Notes: a model not told the origin generated them from the letters alone. DNA of 33,103 bases from an uncultured Caryophanales bacterium (GCA_947306705.1 CAMZHD010000009.1:1-33103), one strand, 5' to 3'; numbered from the stretch's first letter, positions 745-30,978 are shown. A program made the numbers and translations.

Positions 745-770
745 AAACCTATGAATTATATCATAGGTTT
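745..770 (-). terminator. Intrinsic terminator for the 488-aa gene, overlapping its stop codon
   Basis: AAACCTATGA-attata-TCATAGGTTT perfect 10-bp stem; U-tract on minus strand (plus strand taaaaaa). Confidence 0.65.
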
Positions 771-2235
771 AATTACAAAAGAATATGTTATCTCGAGTCT
801 GATATATACAGGTGTTCGAAGCACTTGTCAAGATTAAGAATGCTTCTCCCGCATCATAATCAAGACGATCTGGGTCTGCTATTCTTAGAGTAATGTTTTC
901 TCCAGGAATTGTACACTCAAACGTGTATGAATTGATATTTGTACAATTTGAAGGGAAATTTGTGAAGTACTCTGTATAAAGCACACTATAACCTTTTGAT
1001 AAATCTATAGGGTATACTGTGTTGTTTGAATAATATACTAAGTTTGTATCTAGAACTACAAAATTATTGTCATGGGATAAAGTATGTTGCATAAATACTT
1101 TTTTACCATATCTGGAATAGAAAGCAGCTGGATCATATTCATAATTACCATTCAACTGATTCAAGTGACTAGGTGTAAATGAAGAAAAACTATAAGCATA
1201 ATCATATTCTTGACTAGACGTTTCTTCATAGGGATTATTGTCACAAACACAAGAATATGGATTAGATTTACACCGACAATGATATGGGTCAGCGGATTCA
1301 CATGATACCAATACATTATATTCATTTTCGTAGGCCCCATTTCTTGGGTTGTATAAATTAACTGTTGTTTTTCCGGAAAATACAATTGGACAACTAACTA
1401 CTCCATTCACTGTAGTGTCACAAGTTTGTGCTAAAGAGTTCATTATATTATTTATTATTTTATTATAATCGTTCTCTTTTTTTAACCTAAAACAGTTGTC
1501 TCTATATAATATACACATATCTACTATTTTATTATGGGAATTCACTAAGTAACGCATCGATACTGTAGAACTATATGTGTTATTATAATAATCATCCCAA
1601 GAATAATAAACATTACTTAAATTAGAAATATCATCTCCAATATGAACGGGGCTTAAAGGAAAGTGATACGCATAGAGGATATCACCTGGATCTCCCTGTT
1701 CATAGGTAATTATAAAATCAAAACTAAATGTTTGAGAAGAATTTGGTAAATCTTCTGGATTGATATCTGTTCTATACTCTATTCTTACTTTATAAGTTTC
1801 ACTGTCACCATCTGCTAATACATGATTGACTATGACTGGATCTCCATTTTCCATTGTTACTTGATAGTTTAAATAAACTGGCAAAGACGAAATAGGAGTA
1901 TTGTTCATCTTACTTGTAACAGCTGTAATGGTAGCAGGAATGGATCCATCATTTACAGCGTCTATCGTAAATTCATAAAAATCTCCTGGTTGATGAAGTG
2001 TAATTTCATAAGAAACGGATGTTTTTGTAGTTGGATTAATTTGTGGTGTTTCTGCACTCACAGATCCTGTTGTTACTTGAACATTATCCCAATAGATATT
2101 CCAAGTAGCATTATTAATATGAGAATATCCAGTAATATTTAAATCCTGCATTAAAATTGCATAGCCTATTCCTACACATAAAAGAAGTACAATTAATAGA
2201 TCATAAAGATATTTTCTCTTTTTTCTTTTTTTCAT
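769..2235 (-). CDS. SipW-dependent-type (TasA/camelysin-like signal) surface protein with Cys-rich C-terminal half
   Basis: N-terminus KKRKKRKYLYDLLIVLLLCVGIGYAILMQDLNITGYSHINNATWNIYWDNV; G[IV]GYA signal motif; N-terminal beta-rich domain paralogous to the 368-aa protein at 29872-30978; RBS GAGGAATAGGGT before ATG. Confidence 0.75.
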   Translation of the reverse strand: MKKRKKRKYLYDLLIVLLLCVGIGYAILMQDLNITGYSHINNATWNIYWDNVQVTTGSVSAETPQINPTTKTSVSYEITLHQPGDFYEFTIDAVNDGSIPATITAVTSKMNNTPISSLPVYLNYQVTMENGDPVIVNHVLADGDSETYKVRIEYRTDINPEDLPNSSQTFSFDFIITYEQGDPGDILYAYHFPLSPVHIGDDISNLSNVYYSWDDYYNNTYSSTVSMRYLVNSHNKIVDMCILYRDNCFRLKKENDYNKIINNIMNSLAQTCDTTVNGVVSCPIVFSGKTTVNLYNPRNGAYENEYNVLVSCESADPYHCRCKSNPYSCVCDNNPYEETSSQEYDYAYSFSSFTPSHLNQLNGNYEYDPAAFYSRYGKKVFMQHTLSHDNNFVVLDTNLVYYSNNTVYPIDLSKGYSVLYTEYFTNFPSNCTNINSYTFECTIPGENITLRIADPDRLDYDAGEAFLILTSASNTCIYQTRDNIFFCN

Positions 2236-2982: not shown

Positions 2983-4635
2983 CTATACTTCTTGAACCAC
3001 TGTAATAATCATTGGTTTAGATTCCGTTTCTTGATAGAAGAATTTTCCTAAAACATCTCTTACATCATTTTTTATTTTTGCATAGTCTACTCGTTTCATA
3101 TTTTCTTCAATACTTTGTTCAATGACTTCTTTTGAGATTTTCTTTGTTTCTTCTAATAAATCTTGGGACTCTTTTACATAGATAAATCCACGAGTTAAGA
3201 TTTCTGGCCCTCCTACAATATTCTTTGTTGTTTTATCTAGTGTACAACTGATAATGACAATTCCATTCGATCCTAACATTTCTCTATCTTTTAATACTAA
3301 GTCTCCTACATCTCCTCCATTGTTTCCACTGATTAGGATTTGATCGGTTTCAATGTGTTCAAAAGATTCAATGTTTTCTCCATCATCAAATTCTACTACA
3401 TCTCCATTTAATTTTAATAGTATATTTTCTTTTGGAATTCCTAATTGTTCTGCGATTTCTGCATTTGCATATTGATTTCTATATTCTCCTTTTACTGGGA
3501 AGAAATATTTTGGTTGCATCAAATCAATCATTAACATTAAGTCTTCTTGAGAGGCATGGTGAAGTAAATGCTTTTTACTCGATAAGCTAATGGCATCGGC
3601 TCCTAACATAGCAATCTCATCCATGATAGTCGCAAGACGTTTTTCAATTCCTGCATAAGATGGTTCTGTAATAAAAATGGTGTCTGTTTCTCGTATGGTG
3701 ATATATTTATCAAATCCATGAATAATTCTTTCTAGATTTGCGAATGGTTTTTCTTTTTCATCGGATATTAATACGACTGAATTCTTGTTTTCTAAGTCTG
3801 CAAGAGTTCCAATCTTATCTCGATCAATCTTTAAGTATCCATCATCAATTGCTTTATGAATTAGCTCTTGTAGGGGTTTCCCCATAATAACAATTTTTCT
3901 TTTTGTTTTGGATACTTCATCAAATACTTCTTGAATACGATGGAAGTGTGCAGGGAATATCGTAGCGATGATTCTTTCTTTTGATTTATTTAAAACATCT
4001 CGAATAAATTCTCCTACTCTATTTTGAGGAGAAGTATGTCCTGGTTTATCTGCATAGAAAGATTCACATAATAAGCATAATACTCCTTGTTTTCCAACAT
4101 ACGCTAATTTTCCAATATCCGTTTTATATCCACCCATCATGGTAGAATCAAACGTAAAGTCTCCTGTGTATACGATTGCTCCATCTGGTGTATATAGTAC
4201 ATAACATACTGCATCTGGGATGGAATGTGTTACACTAATTGGAAAAATTGCATTCTTTCCAAAATCTATTTTTACGTGTGGTTTAATTTCTATTAAGTTT
4301 GGTTTTTCTACGATTGTTTTATCAATATCATGGTTCACAATCGCTAACGTTAATTTTGTTCCATAAATAGGAATATTAGGAAGTTTCTCAATAATATCAG
4401 GAGCAGCTCCCATATTTCCTTCATGTCCATGTGTTAAGAATATTCCTTTAATATTCTTTTCATTTTGTATTAAATAATCAAAATTTGGAATAATATAATC
4501 TATTCCTAAATTGATATCATTGTCATACTTTAGACCGGCATCAAATATAAATATGTCTTCATCTACTTTGACTACATACATATTTTTTCCGTTTTCATTT
4601 AAACCGCCTAAAGCAAATATTTTAATTTTACTCAT
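2983..4635 (-). CDS. rnjB: Ribonuclease J, J2-like with degenerate catalytic motifs
   Basis: MSKIKIFALGGLNENGKNMYVVKVDEDIFIFDAGL...LTHGHEGNMGA...VTHSIPDAV...TGDFTFDS...FFPVKGEYRNQ...GGPEILTRGFIYVKES. ATG at 4635 with AAAGGAGATACA RBS preferred over the upstream track start at 4683. Confidence 0.85.
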   Translation of the reverse strand: MSKIKIFALGGLNENGKNMYVVKVDEDIFIFDAGLKYDNDINLGIDYIIPNFDYLIQNEKNIKGIFLTHGHEGNMGAAPDIIEKLPNIPIYGTKLTLAIVNHDIDKTIVEKPNLIEIKPHVKIDFGKNAIFPISVTHSIPDAVCYVLYTPDGAIVYTGDFTFDSTMMGGYKTDIGKLAYVGKQGVLCLLCESFYADKPGHTSPQNRVGEFIRDVLNKSKERIIATIFPAHFHRIQEVFDEVSKTKRKIVIMGKPLQELIHKAIDDGYLKIDRDKIGTLADLENKNSVVLISDEKEKPFANLERIIHGFDKYITIRETDTIFITEPSYAGIEKRLATIMDEIAMLGADAISLSSKKHLLHHASQEDLMLMIDLMQPKYFFPVKGEYRNQYANAEIAEQLGIPKENILLKLNGDVVEFDDGENIESFEHIETDQILISGNNGGDVGDLVLKDREMLGSNGIVIISCTLDKTTKNIVGGPEILTRGFIYVKESQDLLEETKKISKEVIEQSIEENMKRVDYAKIKNDVRDVLGKFFYQETESKPMIITVVQEV

Positions 4636-4700
4636 TGTATCTCCTTTCTTTTCTTTTTCCAAACGAATAAACAGCAATCTCATTATAGCACTTTTTCATA

Positions 4701-4728
4701 AAAAAAGAAAAGAATTCTTTTCTTTTTT
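4701..4728. terminator. 28-bp perfect palindrome; intrinsic terminator for the 498-aa gene
   Basis: AAAAAAGAAAAGAATTCTTTTCTTTTTT, adjacent to the stop of the gene starting at 6223. Confidence 0.7.
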
Positions 4729-6223
4729 AACTAAATGATACAGAGCCATCCTCTTCTACTCTATAGCTTACTTGATTCATGTCTAGTACTAACATTGGTC
4801 TAACTTTTGCAGATTCTGTTCCACCTTCTATGGCTCCTGCTTCTGTTCCAGTAGCAATTTTAACTCCGTTTAGTCCGGTTCCAGCTTTTATCATTCCATA
4901 ACTGATATTTCCATTTGATACATCCGTTACACGAGTCGCAAGGAAATAATCGGTTCCTCCAAAGATTAGATTGTATGTTTCTGTTGGAAGAAGATTTTGT
5001 AAATTCTCAGCTGAAATGGAATAATTGGTTTGATAAGTATTAATGCTATCCTTTCGAGAAATCCTCATATCTGTATAGGCAATTGGAGCCGATATATAAA
5101 CGGATTCATTGTTGATAGCCGTTAGGTCTACATCATTCTCTGAAGAGAAGGTGTCTGATAGATAAACACTTCCTACCCTTTGAACGCTTCCATATGGGTT
5201 AGAAGTTGTATAGTAATCACCTATAATCGATTCTACGTTTTGATAACTCCAAATAGGATTTCCATAAACATCGACATATCCAACGCCTCCATGGGCTTGA
5301 ATAATTTTTTCTTCAATATCACTTAGACGCATACTTCTACCAGTTGCTCCGACTCCTCCTCCATATTGCATTTCGCAAATATCATCTAGAAGGAATACAA
5401 AGTTTGTCCATCCTGTATGTCCTCCAAAGGATACATTCTGAGAGGTTGTTGCCGTTGCGATTAGTGTTACTGTATTATTATCTGGATCTTTTGACCATAC
5501 TTTCCATGACAATGCATTTTGCGTTAGTGTAGTTGCTGAACTACTACCAGAGTATGTTTCCTTTGCAAGTTTATACGTTCTATTGTTGGCTCTAAATCCA
5601 TTTTGATTGGCATTTGGCGACCAAGTAGAGTTTTCTGTATGAGAAGAAGCTGTATAATTTGCTGTTGCATTGATTGGAATATCTGCTAATACTGTTTGAG
5701 GTGGTTCAACCCAATCAATATTAACATATGAATTTACATATGTATTTGTGATAGTTGTTAGACTTGGATCATATTTATAGGTAATATGGAACGTTAAAGT
5801 ATCTCCTGCAGCAAGTAAATCTCCTGGATTTAAATCAGATACACAAATGATTTCTGGATTGTTATAAAACTCTGGAATATATTGTAATCCATTATATAAA
5901 TAATTCATTCCAGAAGTATTCATTACAGATACTTCATACGTAATATAAGAAGCTAAATCATTTGACAAAATAATTCTATGAGAGAACATACTTTGATAAT
6001 ACGTTACTACTCTAGAATTTGCAGTATCTGCTAGATAACTATCAGAGATTGCCATATTAGAAATAAAGATACCGGTTTGCCCTACTGCTGTGGCATCTCC
6101 TGTTATATTAAAAGTTTTCCCACTCATTTGAGCATATCCAACACCTAAAAAGAGAACTGCGAATACAATTAGGCATAAATAGATGTTCTTTGTGATAAAT
6201 TGTAAAAATTGTCTATGCTTCAT
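4727..6223 (-). CDS. Large SipW-dependent-type (G[IV]GYA signal) secreted/surface protein
   Basis: MKHRQFLQFITKNIYLCLIVFAVLFLGVGYAQMSGKTFNITGDATAVGQTGIFISNMAISDSY...; beta-rich, Gly/Ser/Thr-rich body. Confidence 0.75.
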   Translation of the reverse strand: MKHRQFLQFITKNIYLCLIVFAVLFLGVGYAQMSGKTFNITGDATAVGQTGIFISNMAISDSYLADTANSRVVTYYQSMFSHRIILSNDLASYITYEVSVMNTSGMNYLYNGLQYIPEFYNNPEIICVSDLNPGDLLAAGDTLTFHITYKYDPSLTTITNTYVNSYVNIDWVEPPQTVLADIPINATANYTASSHTENSTWSPNANQNGFRANNRTYKLAKETYSGSSSATTLTQNALSWKVWSKDPDNNTVTLIATATTSQNVSFGGHTGWTNFVFLLDDICEMQYGGGVGATGRSMRLSDIEEKIIQAHGGVGYVDVYGNPIWSYQNVESIIGDYYTTSNPYGSVQRVGSVYLSDTFSSENDVDLTAINNESVYISAPIAYTDMRISRKDSINTYQTNYSISAENLQNLLPTETYNLIFGGTDYFLATRVTDVSNGNISYGMIKAGTGLNGVKIATGTEAGAIEGGTESAKVRPMLVLDMNQVSYRVEEDGSVSFS

Positions 6224-6296
6224 AGTTCTCCTCCTAAAAAAGATACGTTTCTTTCTGCAAACTGCTTATAGAATACCGTATCTTTTATTTGCTTAT

Positions 6297-7658
6297 TTAT
6301 TTCTTATTTTTCTTAGCAGTGTCTTTTTTAGTTTTCTTTTCTTTTTTCTTTAATTCTTTTTCTGCTTTACGAATTTCATTGATATCAAAACTACTTGTTT
6401 TTTCTAGTTGATCATATAAGTCTTTTCCACTTTCTTTTACGTTTTGTACAATATTCTTTTCATCAATTTTTGGCATTGAAGTTGTCATTGTAATTTGTTC
6501 TTTAATATACTTATCTGTATATTTCTTATTCTTTAAGAACTCTTTATGTGGAATTTCTGTAATATCATACGTTGGTACTTCATTTCCATCCATTTTTGCT
6601 TTAATATCACATACTCTTAATGCATATGTATATATCAAACTATTGGTTGCTGGAATAATGAAGAATGTTCCATCTTTTTGATCATTCTCAAGCATTAAGA
6701 TTGGTTGTTTCAATGTATCTCTTATCTCTAACATATCATTGAAGGATTCAATCTTTAATACTTGTGAGGTACCAATATCATAAGTACCATTGATTCTTTG
6801 AATATAAGAATCATAATTGTTCATAATACTCTTAATTTCTTTATCATAAATCATTTGAGCAGTCTTTGTTCTTTGACTATAAATGATTAGATAGAATGCA
6901 TAAACAAATGCAATTAATAAGTAGAATAAACTGATTACTAAAATCCATGTAGGATCTTCAGCTTTTGTAATTTCAATACGATTATTTGTATTCCTAATAA
7001 CATTATTGGCAATATCGATAGATACTGTTTTTTCTGTTAATGGAATGGTTAGACTAGATACTTTCTTTTCTGCTAAAGCAGCAGTATTACTCTTGTCTAT
7101 ATCTTGTACATTTACATATAAGTAAACATTTAATACAGCATTTGTATTCGTTAAATCATAAATATCTTTAAATCTACTAGCTATATTATTATATTGTTCA
7201 TAATTGATACTTAATACTTCATCAATATTCATATCCCCTGAACCAACAGCTAGTTGTTTTGTAATTAGATCTTCGCTAAAGTGATAAATATTATTATCAT
7301 TTCTTGAATCTTCTACGTCTGCTTCTACCGTAATACGATAAGAATATTTATAGTTTACATCTTCTGAAAATTTTAATTGATATTTAAAATTAGCAGATAT
7401 AGATTCAATTAGACTGGCTACGAATCCTTTTCCTTCATCATCCGATTTATCTAGGTATTCTTCTTTATAGAATTCATTTTCTTTTAGATATACCTTATAA
7501 TCTATATTACTATTTTCACTATAAGTAATATATTTTGCTTTATCTCTTGTAAGGTAAAAAGTCAAAGCAGCTAATCCAATCATGGAAGACACAATTACCA
7601 TTAAAAGTAAATTTTTAATTTCTGTCTTTCTAATACTATCTTTCTTATCCATTTTCAA
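6297..7658 (-). CDS. DUF5305-like bitopic membrane protein
   Basis: N-terminal TM helix, extracellular domain (YKVYLKENEFY...YKYSYRITVEADV), second TM (ILVISLFYLLIAFVYAFYLIIYS), then YDSYIQRINGTYDI..QVLKIESFNDMLEIRDTLKQPILM pattern typical of DUF5305; Lys-rich tail. Confidence 0.7.
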   Translation of the reverse strand: MKMDKKDSIRKTEIKNLLLMVIVSSMIGLAALTFYLTRDKAKYITYSENSNIDYKVYLKENEFYKEEYLDKSDDEGKGFVASLIESISANFKYQLKFSEDVNYKYSYRITVEADVEDSRNDNNIYHFSEDLITKQLAVGSGDMNIDEVLSINYEQYNNIASRFKDIYDLTNTNAVLNVYLYVNVQDIDKSNTAALAEKKVSSLTIPLTEKTVSIDIANNVIRNTNNRIEITKAEDPTWILVISLFYLLIAFVYAFYLIIYSQRTKTAQMIYDKEIKSIMNNYDSYIQRINGTYDIGTSQVLKIESFNDMLEIRDTLKQPILMLENDQKDGTFFIIPATNSLIYTYALRVCDIKAKMDGNEVPTYDITEIPHKEFLKNKKYTDKYIKEQITMTTSMPKIDEKNIVQNVKESGKDLYDQLEKTSSFDINEIRKAEKELKKKEKKTKKDTAKKNKK

Positions 7659-7665
7659 TCCCTCT

Positions 7666-8793
7666 TTATTTAAACAAATTTCTTAACCATAAGGATGGCC
7701 ATCCAATATAACGAATTTTTAAAATGACTTTTCCCATTAAGGATTCTTCTGTAACATACAAATCATCTGCTACAGCATTGGCATCTCCTTTGGTATAATA
7801 GCGAAATTCGTCATTAATATTTTTTACGGCGGTAACACGGTGTACAACACGAATGTTATCTCGACGGAAGACTATGACATCTCCTTCTTCAATGACTTTT
7901 TCTTTACTATTGAATAAGACTACGTCTCCTCTTTCAATTGTTCCTGTCATTGAATCTGATCCAATTACTAGTATTCCATACGTAAATCTACAAGATACTA
8001 GTCCGATTATAAATACTACGAATAAAACTCCTACTACTAAAGTAATAATTTCTTTTCGTAGTTCTTTTGGTCTTTCTCTGTAATAGTCATGGTTGTAGTA
8101 TTTTTCTAAGTATGAATATATCAACAATGGATATATTAATCTTAGGAATGTTCTAAAGTATACGTATACATCTGGAATGATTGGAAAGATATAACTATAT
8201 AGCATAGTAATTAATTTATATGCTATAACGGGATCTTTTCCATATCTTGCACTAATATAGGTATACAACATATTATTTGCAATTGATGCAAAAGAAATTA
8301 AACCTAATAAAGCCATAAAGCTTTCTAGATTCTTAAAATTATAAGTACTTAAATATAAAGATATATCAACTAATGTACCTACAATGGTAATTAATACCTT
8401 TGATACTGTTGAATCATCTATTAATACCTTCGTACGAATATATTCCATTGATATAATCGTTAAAGATATTGGAATAATATAAGTAAATAGTGATTTTACT
8501 CCAAATCTTACGTTCGCATTAAAAAATCCTGTAGATAGTCCTAATACATAGAATGCTGCTACATAGAATATTCCAAATACGATCATCATCGTTAAGATTT
8601 TTCTTTTACTTGATGGTAAATTTCTGTCTCTTTTTAGCAGTAAAGAGATTAGAAAGGCAGATCCTGTTATTAGGACTGCGGTAAAGATTTTATTACTAGT
8701 AAGATGAACAAGGGTACATAATACTAGGAATAGTAATAATACTAATTCAACAATAACACTTTTCGTGAATATTCTTTTCATGTACCCTTTCAC
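7666..8793 (-). CDS. sipW: SipW-type (ER/archaeal-type) signal peptidase I with N-terminal polytopic membrane domain (ATG at 8781 is an alternative start)
   Basis: C-terminal VIGSDSMTGTIERGDVVLF (catalytic Ser box), VIVFRRDNIRVVHRVTAV (His in place of Lys, ER-type), YYTKGDANAVADD box; preceded by about 6 hydrophobic segments. Confidence 0.85.
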   Translation of the reverse strand: MKGYMKRIFTKSVIVELVLLLFLVLCTLVHLTSNKIFTAVLITGSAFLISLLLKRDRNLPSSKRKILTMMIVFGIFYVAAFYVLGLSTGFFNANVRFGVKSLFTYIIPISLTIISMEYIRTKVLIDDSTVSKVLITIVGTLVDISLYLSTYNFKNLESFMALLGLISFASIANNMLYTYISARYGKDPVIAYKLITMLYSYIFPIIPDVYVYFRTFLRLIYPLLIYSYLEKYYNHDYYRERPKELRKEIITLVVGVLFVVFIIGLVSCRFTYGILVIGSDSMTGTIERGDVVLFNSKEKVIEEGDVIVFRRDNIRVVHRVTAVKNINDEFRYYTKGDANAVADDLYVTEESLMGKVILKIRYIGWPSLWLRNLFK

Positions 8794-8823
8794 CTACTTT
8801 TTATTCTTGAACTTTATTCTTTA

Positions 8824-9312
8824 TTAAGCAACTGGATTTGCTTCTACTGATAAAGCTATAAATGTAGTTACATCAGCAGTTACTGGAGTTTTTAAAGCTT
8901 CTACTTCAACAACGACTGTAGTGCTTCCCCCTGGTGCAATTGTATTGCTTCCTAATGTTGCATTTACTTGGAAGTTTGTATCATCAGCATTATCAACAGC
9001 TAAGTTTTCTAATTTAGCAGCGATTTCATCAGATTCGTTAACAATTGTATAAGTAATTGTTGTTTTGTCTCCTCTTTTTGTGAAACCTTCAATTGTGAAC
9101 TCAGCGTTTAATAAATCTGTTACTGTAGCAGTTACTGTTCCATCTCCAGCTACGGTTGCTGGTTCTTGGAAATGTACTACAAAGTTTGAATCATCAACTG
9201 AAATAGTTCCTGCTCCTTCTATATTTAGTGTTACTCCACTCATGGCAGCGTAACCAATTCCTAAAGCTAATACTGCGATTAGGATTACAATAATTCCTGT
9301 TCTTCTTTTCAT
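8824..9312 (-). CDS. TasA/camelysin-like SipW-dependent secreted protein
   Basis: MKRRTGIIVILIAVLALGIGYAAMSGVTLNIEGAGTISVDDSNFVVHFQEPATV...; size, signal type and adjacency to sipW. Confidence 0.8.
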   Translation of the reverse strand: MKRRTGIIVILIAVLALGIGYAAMSGVTLNIEGAGTISVDDSNFVVHFQEPATVAGDGTVTATVTDLLNAEFTIEGFTKRGDKTTITYTIVNESDEIAAKLENLAVDNADDTNFQVNATLGSNTIAPGGSTTVVVEVEALKTPVTADVTTFIALSVEANPVA

Positions 9313-9384: not shown

Positions 9385-9413
9385 ATTATATCGATTATTT
9401 TTCTTAAAATCAA
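9385..9413 (-). promoter_or_regulatory. Sigma-A-type promoter of the TasA-like/sipW operon
   Basis: Minus strand TTGATT-17 nt-TATAAT (AATCAA at 9408-9413; ATTATA at 9385-9390), about 70 nt upstream of the start codon. Confidence 0.7.
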
Positions 9414-9446: not shown

Positions 9447-10124
9447 TTAAAAAACCATCTTATCTAATGCTTCTTTTGCGGCCTCTTGTTCTGCCTCTTT
9501 TTTACTCGTTCCAGAGCCTACTCCATACACGATTTCATCGATTTTTACTTCTACCGTGAAACGTTTATCATGAGCTGGTCCTTCTTCATTTACTAAGACA
9601 TATTCTAGAGACTTTTGCTCTGTTTGAACATATTCTTGTAGAGCACTCTTATAATCACTAAAGAAAGATGTATTTGGATCTTCTATATAAGGAACAATAA
9701 TATCTAATACAACTCTTCTTACCGTTGCATATCCTAAATCTACGTAGATTGCTCCCATTAAGGCTTCAAAGATATCCGCAACAATTGCTTTCTTTAATCC
9801 TTCTTTTTGTTCCCCATTTCCTAATAATATGTAGTTTTGTAGACCAAGGGCTGTTGCATAACAATAGTTTGCATTCTCACAGACGTAACTTGCTCTTACC
9901 TTTGTCATTTCTCCTTCTGATTCTTTATGATTTCGAAATAGATAATCTGCTACTACTAAATCTAGGACAGCATCTCCTAAAAACTCTAATCTTTCATAGT
10001 TTGCTTTTGCTTTATGTTCATTTGTATAAGAACTATGAGAGAAGGCTGCCTTATATAAGGATAGATTCTTAGGAGTAATCTTTAAGGTTTGAAATAGTTC
10101 TTCCATCTTCATCACCGTATTCAT
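9447..10124 (-). CDS. rnc: Ribonuclease III (true start probably 10112 or 10106)
   Basis: YERLEFLGDAVLDLVVADYLF signature, IVADIFEALMGAIYVDLGY, C-terminal dsRBD KRFTVEVKIDEIVYGVGSGTSKKEAEQEAAKEAL. Confidence 0.95.
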   Translation of the reverse strand: MNTVMKMEELFQTLKITPKNLSLYKAAFSHSSYTNEHKAKANYERLEFLGDAVLDLVVADYLFRNHKESEGEMTKVRASYVCENANYCYATALGLQNYILLGNGEQKEGLKKAIVADIFEALMGAIYVDLGYATVRRVVLDIIVPYIEDPNTSFFSDYKSALQEYVQTEQKSLEYVLVNEEGPAHDKRFTVEVKIDEIVYGVGSGTSKKEAEQEAAKEALDKMVF

Positions 10125-20880: not shown

Positions 20881-20906
20881 AAAAATACATCCTAAGATGT
20901 ATTTTT
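20881..20906 (-). terminator. Intrinsic terminator of the pilin-like gene
   Basis: AAAAATACATC-ctaa-GATGTATTTTT, overlapping the stop of the 137-aa ORF. Confidence 0.7.
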
Positions 20907-21318
20907 ATGCTTCACAATGATCGTTTTTAACTCTATGTCCACCTGGGAACGTATACGTATAATTTACATTAGAACAACACATAATGACTTCATAAGAGTT
21001 CACATCAATTCCTGTTGTATTATCAACCGTAATGTTTACTTTTCCTGAGCATTGTTCACTCTTGGTTGCGGGATCAATCGTTGGTTCTAGATATTGATCT
21101 TCTACTAATTGTTGAAATGTTACCGTTCTAACCGTTGGATAATCCATATAATAATTTTCTGCTGCTTGGGAAGCTGATTGTGCCATAAAGTTGTAACTCT
21201 TATTCTTACTAGATTCAATGTATCTTGTATATCCAATGATTGCGAGAGACATCATAATTCCTAAGATGGTTACAACTCCTAATATTTCTACTAATGTAAA
21301 TCCTTTATTGTTTTTCAT
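20905..21318 (-). CDS. Type IV pilin/pseudopilin-like protein with N-terminal prepilin motif
   Basis: MKNNKGFTLVEILGVVTILGIMMSLAIIGYTRYIESSKNKSYN; class III signal G/FTLVE; four Cys in the globular domain. Confidence 0.85.
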   Translation of the reverse strand: MKNNKGFTLVEILGVVTILGIMMSLAIIGYTRYIESSKNKSYNFMAQSASQAAENYYMDYPTVRTVTFQQLVEDQYLEPTIDPATKSEQCSGKVNITVDNTTGIDVNSYEVIMCCSNVNYTYTFPGGHRVKNDHCEA

Positions 21319-29871: not shown

Positions 29872-30978
29872 TTAATGTTCGATGAAATTAGTACACCCTA
29901 TTGAGAAATGAAACTCACACTTATATTCATTATCTAAACTATACTCATTTTGGAATTTTGCCTGTCCATTTTTACTTATTTCTGCAACGATACTTCCATA
30001 TGTTGGATCCTCAGAAATATAACATGTGTAATATTCCTGTTCTAATCCGGAATAATCACAATTGCTAGAAGGAAAGAATGAATCCATTACGGCTTTATTC
30101 TCTTCATAATAAATACTATCGTTATTATACTTGCCAGTTGCTTCATTATAAGTAGCTCCACCACCCTTAAGTACATATACGTGATTGTTGTATTTAAACA
30201 TTACTTCTGGGTCCATGATTATTCCATTTTTTACTTTTATACGAGCAAAAGGATTATGGTGCGCAAAGGCTTCTTCCTCTGAGTAATAATACTCATGTTC
30301 CTTTTCCCAAGCAGTATCCCAATAATATTGATTTAGCCGTTCACTAAATAGTTTTCCATCTGTTTCTTTATATGCACCGTTTGTATAAAAACTATACTCT
30401 CTTGGGATGGCAATTGATTTATCAGCTTGAATATAGGTCATTCCAAATTGCAAGGAATTAACAACATTTGGTCCTGGTAAATCTTCTGGATTTAGATCTT
30501 TTTTATAAGACAACATAACAAGGATAGTTTCTGTTTCTCCTACAGCTAGTAAATGGTTTGGTTCTAATTCTCTTCCATCTAAGTAAGTTACAGAATATTC
30601 TAGATACGGAGGTAATGTTGTGATAACAGAACCATTTAGTTTGGATTCAACCGATTCAAGCATAGCGTCGATGGTTCCTTCATTAACCACATCTACCGTA
30701 AAAAAGTAAACATCTCCTGGTAAAGAAAATGTTATTGTGTATGCAATTGAAGTAGCAGATGTAATAGTTGGCTCTTGATCTCCTACCACAGGATTATCAT
30801 AAGATTCTAAAATATCCAAATTATCAAAATGAACATCCCAACTTCCTGCAAGCATAGTAGATGTTCCATCAATTGATAAATTGGTTAGAAGGGCTGCATA
30901 GCCTATTCCTAATCCTAATATCAAAACAACTAATAAAGTAAACATCATTTTTCTTTTTTCTCGTCTCAAGGTTCTCAC
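29872..30978 (-). CDS. SipW-dependent-type (G[IV]GYA signal) surface protein, paralogue of the 488-aa protein
   Basis: RREKRKMMFTLLVVLILGLGIGYAALLTNLSIDGTSTMLAGSWDVHFDNLDI; shared PGD-x-Y-x-FT-x-D-x-VN-x-G and LNPEDLP motifs. Confidence 0.75.
   Translation of the reverse strand: MRTLRREKRKMMFTLLVVLILGLGIGYAALLTNLSIDGTSTMLAGSWDVHFDNLDILESYDNPVVGDQEPTITSATSIAYTITFSLPGDVYFFTVDVVNEGTIDAMLESVESKLNGSVITTLPPYLEYSVTYLDGRELEPNHLLAVGETETILVMLSYKKDLNPEDLPGPNVVNSLQFGMTYIQADKSIAIPREYSFYTNGAYKETDGKLFSERLNQYYWDTAWEKEHEYYYSEEEAFAHHNPFARIKVKNGIIMDPEVMFKYNNHVYVLKGGGATYNEATGKYNNDSIYYEENKAVMDSFFPSSNCDYSGLEQEYYTCYISEDPTYGSIVAEISKNGQAKFQNEYSLDNEYKCEFHFSIGCTNFIEH

Follow-up and report, generated by a model that had tools for sequence, protein, structure and literature searches.

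The analysed window, a stretch of 33,103 nucleotides, corresponds to contig C9 of a draft genome that totals 1.29 Mb in 80 contigs. The minus strand of the window carries a four-gene operon that is probably one of four paralogous modules, each combining Sec-dependent export, processing by a SipW-type signal peptidase, and the assembly of a thin surface fibre by donor strands. The preliminary description of the locus had proposed such a SipW-dependent surface-fibre module with a DUF5305 protein; this is well supported by the co-conservation of the genes, the paralogy of the operons, the donor-strand-like segment shared by their products, and a link to archaeal fimbriae. A role of DUF5305 as an assembly or anchoring factor is plausible.

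Organization of the operon

An ORF search between positions 9312 and 4727 of the minus strand yielded, in this order, a small protein with a GIGYA signal, SipW, the DUF5305 protein and a large protein with a GVGYA signal (Table 1), at the place and in the order initially described. The likeliest starts are the predicted ATG codons at 9312 (162 aa), 8781 (SipW), 7652 (DUF5305) and 6223 (498 aa). The ORF finder proposed different starts for SipW (GTG at 8793) and DUF5305 (TTG at 7658); for SipW, the ATG at 8781 is likelier than the codon at 8793, as it is invariant among paralogues. The intergenic gaps are short, as announced, with 30, 13 and 73 bp when SipW is counted from 8793 and DUF5305 from the ATG at 7652. 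The operon is flanked by an RNase J-like gene (2983–4683) and an RNase III-like gene (9447–10124), both judged from their translations. The sigma-A-like promoter that had been assigned to the operon does exist as a string, but the region holds no excess of such strings over shuffled sequences, with 27 found and 30.8 expected.

Table 1 Location of the operon features and of two further surface proteins in the window
Feature	Position	Strand	Basis
Sigma-A-like promoter, TTGATT-17-TATAAT	9385..9413	-	Best minus-strand match of the region, 10/12
162-aa small fibre subunit (TasA/AbpX-like) with a predicted β-sandwich; GIGYA at the end of the signal peptide	8824..9312	-	
Donor-strand-like segment MSGVTLNIEGAGTI, residues 24–37, immediately following the signal peptide	9202..9243	-	Sequence, AF2
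SipW/archaeal-type signal peptidase, 371 aa from ATG	7666..8781	-	TIGR02228 above cut-off
Multi-TM N-terminal peptidase domain, about 8 TM in the family	8056..8781	-	
S26 catalytic domain; SDSM, VHRV and KGDAN motifs (ER/archaeal Ser-His type)	7696..8055	-	
DUF5305 protein, 451 aa from ATG	6297..7652	-	PF17231, AF2
DUF5305 extracellular β-rich domain, residues 40–228	6969..7535	-	
DUF5305 cytosolic domain, residues 265–355	6588..6860	-	
498-aa large protein with a GVGYA signal; putative minor, initiating or tip subunit	4727..6223	-	
Donor-strand-like segment MSGKTFNITGDATAV of the 498-aa protein	6083..6127	-	
Orphan surface protein of 488 aa with a TasA-like N-terminal domain that most resembles the subunit of the C4 operon	769..2235	-	E 1.4e-40
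Orphan TasA-like-domain surface protein, 368 aa	29872..30978	-	E 3.4e-36

The small subunit

The AF2 model of the 162-aa protein is a confident β-sandwich with a mean pLDDT of 85.4. The signal and strand region is poorly ordered, notably residues 21–40, and the low pLDDT of the segment MSGVTLNIEGAGTI is as expected of a free strand.

The protein had been described as TasA/camelysin-like. It matches neither the camelysin model (PF12389) nor the TasA model (NF046066) in Pfam and NCBIfam, and TasA is absent from the best 50 matches obtained when the model was compared with the PDB using Foldseek, the best of which are generic Ig-like folds with E ≥ 3e-3. A profile built from 25 small subunits matched AbpX (archaeal bundling protein X) across the globular domain with E-values of 6.5e-6 and 6.2e-5, a homology that holds for the family profile. 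With this profile, TasA structures reached E-values of 1.4–1.9 at best. Among the 25 subunits, seven weakly matched the camelysin model (best 5.2e-4) and one the TasA model (6.3e-4). From the profile and Foldseek results, the subunit is therefore called TasA/AbpX-like at the superfamily level and is not considered a member of the TasA family. The initial designation is retained at that level through the family profile, but is not borne out by the window protein against the two family models.

The large protein and matching strand segments

Searches of Pfam and NCBIfam with the 498-aa protein and with the two orphan large proteins of the window returned nothing of note. The 498-aa protein is 57% identical to the 162-aa protein over 30 residues of the signal and donor region, which includes the segment MSGKTFNITGDATAV. 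The donor strand of TasA consists of residues 28–38, directly after the signal peptide (PMC9674648), and the N-terminus of TapA resembles it (PMC10151520). In the window operon, the corresponding stretches are MSGVTLNIEGAGTI in the 162-aa protein and MSGKTFNITGDATAV in the 498-aa protein. In 20 operons, small and large proteins of the same operon matched with a mean of 24.65, compared with 18.9 ± 1.16 for shuffled pairs, a value reached by none of 5000 shuffles; a few pairs were mis-anchored, which should weaken the effect rather than create it. In the C9, C6 and C1 operons, the best match of the large protein is in each case its own small subunit.

Large minor-subunit candidates of two loci (L006 7429–9306 and L111 300–6989) contain glycine-rich ALK_LTK_GRD, phage head-fibre, Gp10 C-terminal and Listeria-Bacteroides repeat domains, which would be compatible with tip adhesins.

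Paralogous operons and TasA-like domains in the genome

The genome contains five DUF5305 genes. Four of them belong to operons on contigs C9, C6, C1 and C4 that share one gene order: a small GYA protein, long SipW, DUF5305, and one or more large GYA proteins. Within the genome, identity among the paralogues of the subunit, of SipW and of DUF5305 is only about 21–33%, so the module is old and maintained. The existence of paralogues within one genome could also mean that the similarity following the signal peptides and the shared neighbourhood merely reflect recent duplication, with no common machine. This is most improbable given the low identity of the paralogues, the conservation of the gene order across many genera, and the fact that no decay was seen.

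At least 22 TasA-like domains were found in the genome with the small-subunit profile, which also matches the N-termini of many larger surface proteins. Eleven proteins with a TasA domain outside the small-subunit slot, including the two orphans of the window (769–2235 and 29872–30978), are all closest to the small subunit of C4, with 31–42% identity and a match over the full domain for most of them. Many large surface proteins thus carry the TasA-like domain at their N-terminus, which suggests a fibre-display system. The initial picture of a single locus was thus an understatement, in view of the four operons, the fifth DUF5305 gene, and the TasA-like domains, two of which are in the window at the orphan proteins. 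The claim that the module is self-contained fails, since there are four such operons and many orphan subunits.

The fifth DUF5305 gene (L007, G000:C28, 279–8251) is not accompanied by SipW. It precedes a gene for a protein of 1421 aa that contains an ADP-ribosyltransferase exoenzyme-type domain (PF03496). An ADP-ribosylglycohydrolase gene (PF03747) comes next, and the arrangement resembles those of polymorphic toxin/immunity systems.

A type IV pilus was considered and rejected for the operon, as the signals end with GYA before the strand and not at a prepilin site. The window does encode a type IV pilin-like protein with a prepilin methylation motif (PF07963) at 20905–21318, separate from the GYA system.

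Conservation across the order

DUF5305 is carried by 61 of 146 genomes of the order. Both DUF5305 and a long SipW are present in 55 genomes, both are absent from 85, and only one of the two is found in 3 + 3. The gene association had been chosen beforehand as the refuting test of the preliminary description; co-conservation was found, the presence or absence of DUF5305 and long SipW agreeing in 140 of the 146 genomes (Fisher p of about 1e-32, uncorrected for kinship). The subunit, long SipW and DUF5305 occur together in 54 of the 146 genomes, and subunits are present without DUF5305 in several.

A peptidase is encoded directly upstream on the same strand for at least 70 of 88 DUF5305 genes. 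These peptidases are nearly always long, with a median open frame of 384 aa versus 234 aa for the remaining archaeal-type peptidases of these genomes, most of which are short. In 44 of the 49 loci that were parsed, SipW is preceded by the gene of a 160–250-aa protein whose hydrophobic N-terminus ends with GYA or similar, mostly succeeded by a pattern like L-x-I-x-G. A large GYA protein is found 3' of DUF5305 in about half of the loci, many with a '..VR..DIRIT..' stretch. In three loci (L086, L090 and L091), DUF5305 has no neighbouring SipW, yet lies 3' of a small GYA-type subunit. Recurring in paralogous operons and across the order, the arrangement is well beyond chance.

That DUF5305 tracks long SipW most tightly, and that many substrates are orphans with long and diverse C-termini, would also fit SipW-dependent secretion without polymerization. 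The GYA proteins would then be separate surface proteins, the segment following the signal would be a recognition element for the peptidase, and DUF5305 a peptidase cofactor, which could account for the survival of its cytosolic domain when the outer domain is lost (see below). This explanation is nonetheless unlikely: the relatives or neighbours AbpX, TasA and TafA are fibre proteins, the conserved segment lies where the donor strand of TasA does and has its counterpart within each operon's products, and a stand-alone protein of 160–250 aa heads nearly every operon, as fits a repeating subunit. Assembly into a fibre is preferred.

Two other kinds of loci were observed. In one (L109, G043:C16, 4828–12586), two full DUF5305/SipW modules are in tandem, DUF5305 preceding SipW in the first. 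In four others (L028 10076–12039, L029 7953–17313, L026 3385–4672 and L027 6288–9089), archaeal-type signal peptidases lie beside membrane or surface proteins, one of which has 2707 aa; these loci lack DUF5305 and form a second SipW-type class.

The signal peptidase

The assignment of the second gene to a SipW-type peptidase was confirmed by a score of 79.3 bits with TIGR02228 (cut-off 51.85). The enzyme is not the Bacillus equivalog, its score with NF046067 being 46.3 bits, below the cut-off of 190. Its catalytic domain, residues 247–366, comes after about 250 TM-rich residues; the short peptidases of the same genomes have no such multi-TM N-terminal domain. A phage-borne origin was rejected, as the two phage matches are fragmentary and cover only the catalytic domain of the peptidase.

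The DUF5305 protein

The DUF5305-like membrane protein was recognized as such by PF17231 with 44.9 bits, the gathering cut-off being 29. In the AF2 model (pLDDT 85.8), a first transmembrane segment (about residues 17–35) is followed by an outer β domain, a second transmembrane segment (about 241–259), a cytosolic α/β domain and a charged tail. The outer domain contains 24 well-conserved columns and the cytosolic domain 13. The tail is lineage-specific, being found in some members only. Comparison of the DUF5305 profile with PDB sequences gave no match, and Foldseek returned only generic partial matches to β-sandwiches (best 3but, E 2e-4) that are uninformative on function.

DUF5305 proteins of the C4 type (L009, and L066 and L077 in two congeners) lack the outer domain and retain the transmembrane and cytosolic domains. 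This loss is probably a single event in one lineage. With such proteins, a regulatory or peptidase-partner role competes with that of an assembly or anchoring factor. The cytosolic domain is also retained in haloarchaea.

DUF5305 beyond the order

In a sample of the phylum, DUF5305 scored above the cut-off in only two genomes outside the family. A locus from another family of the same class (L135) has the order subunit, SipW, subunit, DUF5305. Its DUF5305 protein (G380:C6, 7837–9774) has 645 aa, with a C-terminal, cytosolic MshEN domain. In other proteins, MshEN is of the c-di-GMP-binding type, and the fusion hints at control by c-di-GMP. In L134 (G357:C49), a haloarchaeal-looking contig with 60% GC that is apparently mis-binned in a bacterial genome, DUF5305 adjoins an archaeal-type peptidase and TafE/TafC-like genes.

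On haloarchaeal plasmids, the direct neighbour of DUF5305 is a signal peptidase in Natrialba, Halocatena and Halostagnicola, and in Halobaculum one small gene lies between the two. In Haloferax mediterranei and H. larsenii, DUF5305 is near TafA (257 bits, cut-off 190); a signal peptidase and TafC (557 bits, cut-off 410) are also encoded at the H. larsenii locus. In their arrangement of two TM segments and in their cytosolic motif, the haloarchaeal DUF5305 proteins agree with the bacterial ones. According to the passage of PMC12687288 that cites Galeva et al. 2025, tafi are Tat-exported fimbriae with TafA as core protein. The window proteins matched no Taf model, and TafA matched the bacterial small-subunit profile with a probability of 12%, in the signal region only. 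As TafA is not detectably related to the bacterial subunits, the shared element is the pair of DUF5305 and peptidase, and not the subunit.

Response regulators or STAS/anti-sigma genes lie near some of the haloarchaeal DUF5305 genes. Together with the MshEN domain of the L135 homologue and the conservation of the cytosolic domain from bacteria to haloarchaea, including variants without the outer domain, this could mean that DUF5305 is primarily a membrane-spanning regulator, through which a cytosolic signal would gate the production of fibres, rather than an assembly or anchoring protein. Such a role appears somewhat unlikely as the chief one, since the outer β domain of 190 residues is kept in nearly all members with its conserved columns. 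As it is compatible with the assembly of a fibre, the confidences granted to the two overlap.

Discussion

In the proposed model, the fibre consists mainly of the 162-aa protein, which long SipW would cut after the observed GIGYA motif, freeing TLNIEGAGTI as an N-terminal β-strand. The freed strand would insert into the β-sandwich of the next subunit, as in TasA. The 498-aa protein, in which a matching strand is observed, may be a minor subunit that starts, tips or functionalizes the fibre. DUF5305, a regular membrane partner of long SipW on genomic grounds, could use its outer β domain to take over new subunits at the membrane or to anchor them there, and its cytosolic domain might couple subunit handling to SipW/Sec or to a cytosolic signal.

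To our knowledge, no integral-membrane assembly or anchoring factor is established for Gram-positive TasA-like fibres or archaeal donor-strand fibres. DUF5305, which accompanies a dedicated peptidase across an order of bacteria with small genomes and also occurs in fimbrial clusters of haloarchaea, is an obvious candidate for such a factor, and its association with SipW and the archaeal clusters gives this uncharacterized family a directly testable role. More tentatively, DUF5305 may be the membrane assembly and coupling factor of signal-peptidase-I-processed fibres common to Bacteria and Archaea, functioning with a dedicated archaeal-type peptidase, its outer domain acting on new subunits and its inner domain receiving cytosolic input, in a pathway separate from those of chaperone-usher, sortase and type IV pili. 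The combination had been presented as undescribed. This holds for the bacterial combination within the literature searched, where DUF5305 is not mentioned, but DUF5305 is already present in haloarchaeal Tat-fimbriae clusters.

Among known systems, the Bacillus loci tapA-sipW-tasA and sipW-calY-tasA also comprise a SipW-type peptidase, a small β-sandwich subunit with a strand after the signal peptide, and a second substrate with a similar strand (a TapA/CapP-like role). They differ in that no DUF5305 match was found in the B. subtilis control genome and that the Bacillus SipW is short, without the domain of about 8 TM found in the window SipW. The large proteins of the window type are adhesin-sized and not TapA homologues, and the small subunits are below the TasA and camelysin cut-offs.

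The Sulfolobus threads, for which the searches made gave no sequence match, are donor-strand fibres processed by signal peptidase I, as is proposed for the fibre of the operon. Among solved structures, the one that the small-subunit profile matches best is AbpX of the archaeal bundling pili (AbpA/AbpX), although these organisms are archaea. The haloarchaeal tafi resemble the window operon by a two-TM DUF5305 within or next to clusters with an archaeal-type signal peptidase, but are exported by Tat, whereas the signals of the operon are Sec-like; the haloarchaeal peptidase has its catalytic domain at the N-terminus and an extension at the C-terminus, opposite to the layout of the window SipW. 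The module is real, old and repeated, and is a variant of the TasA/Abp/tafi-like fibre systems, in which DUF5305 is the component that most deserves study.
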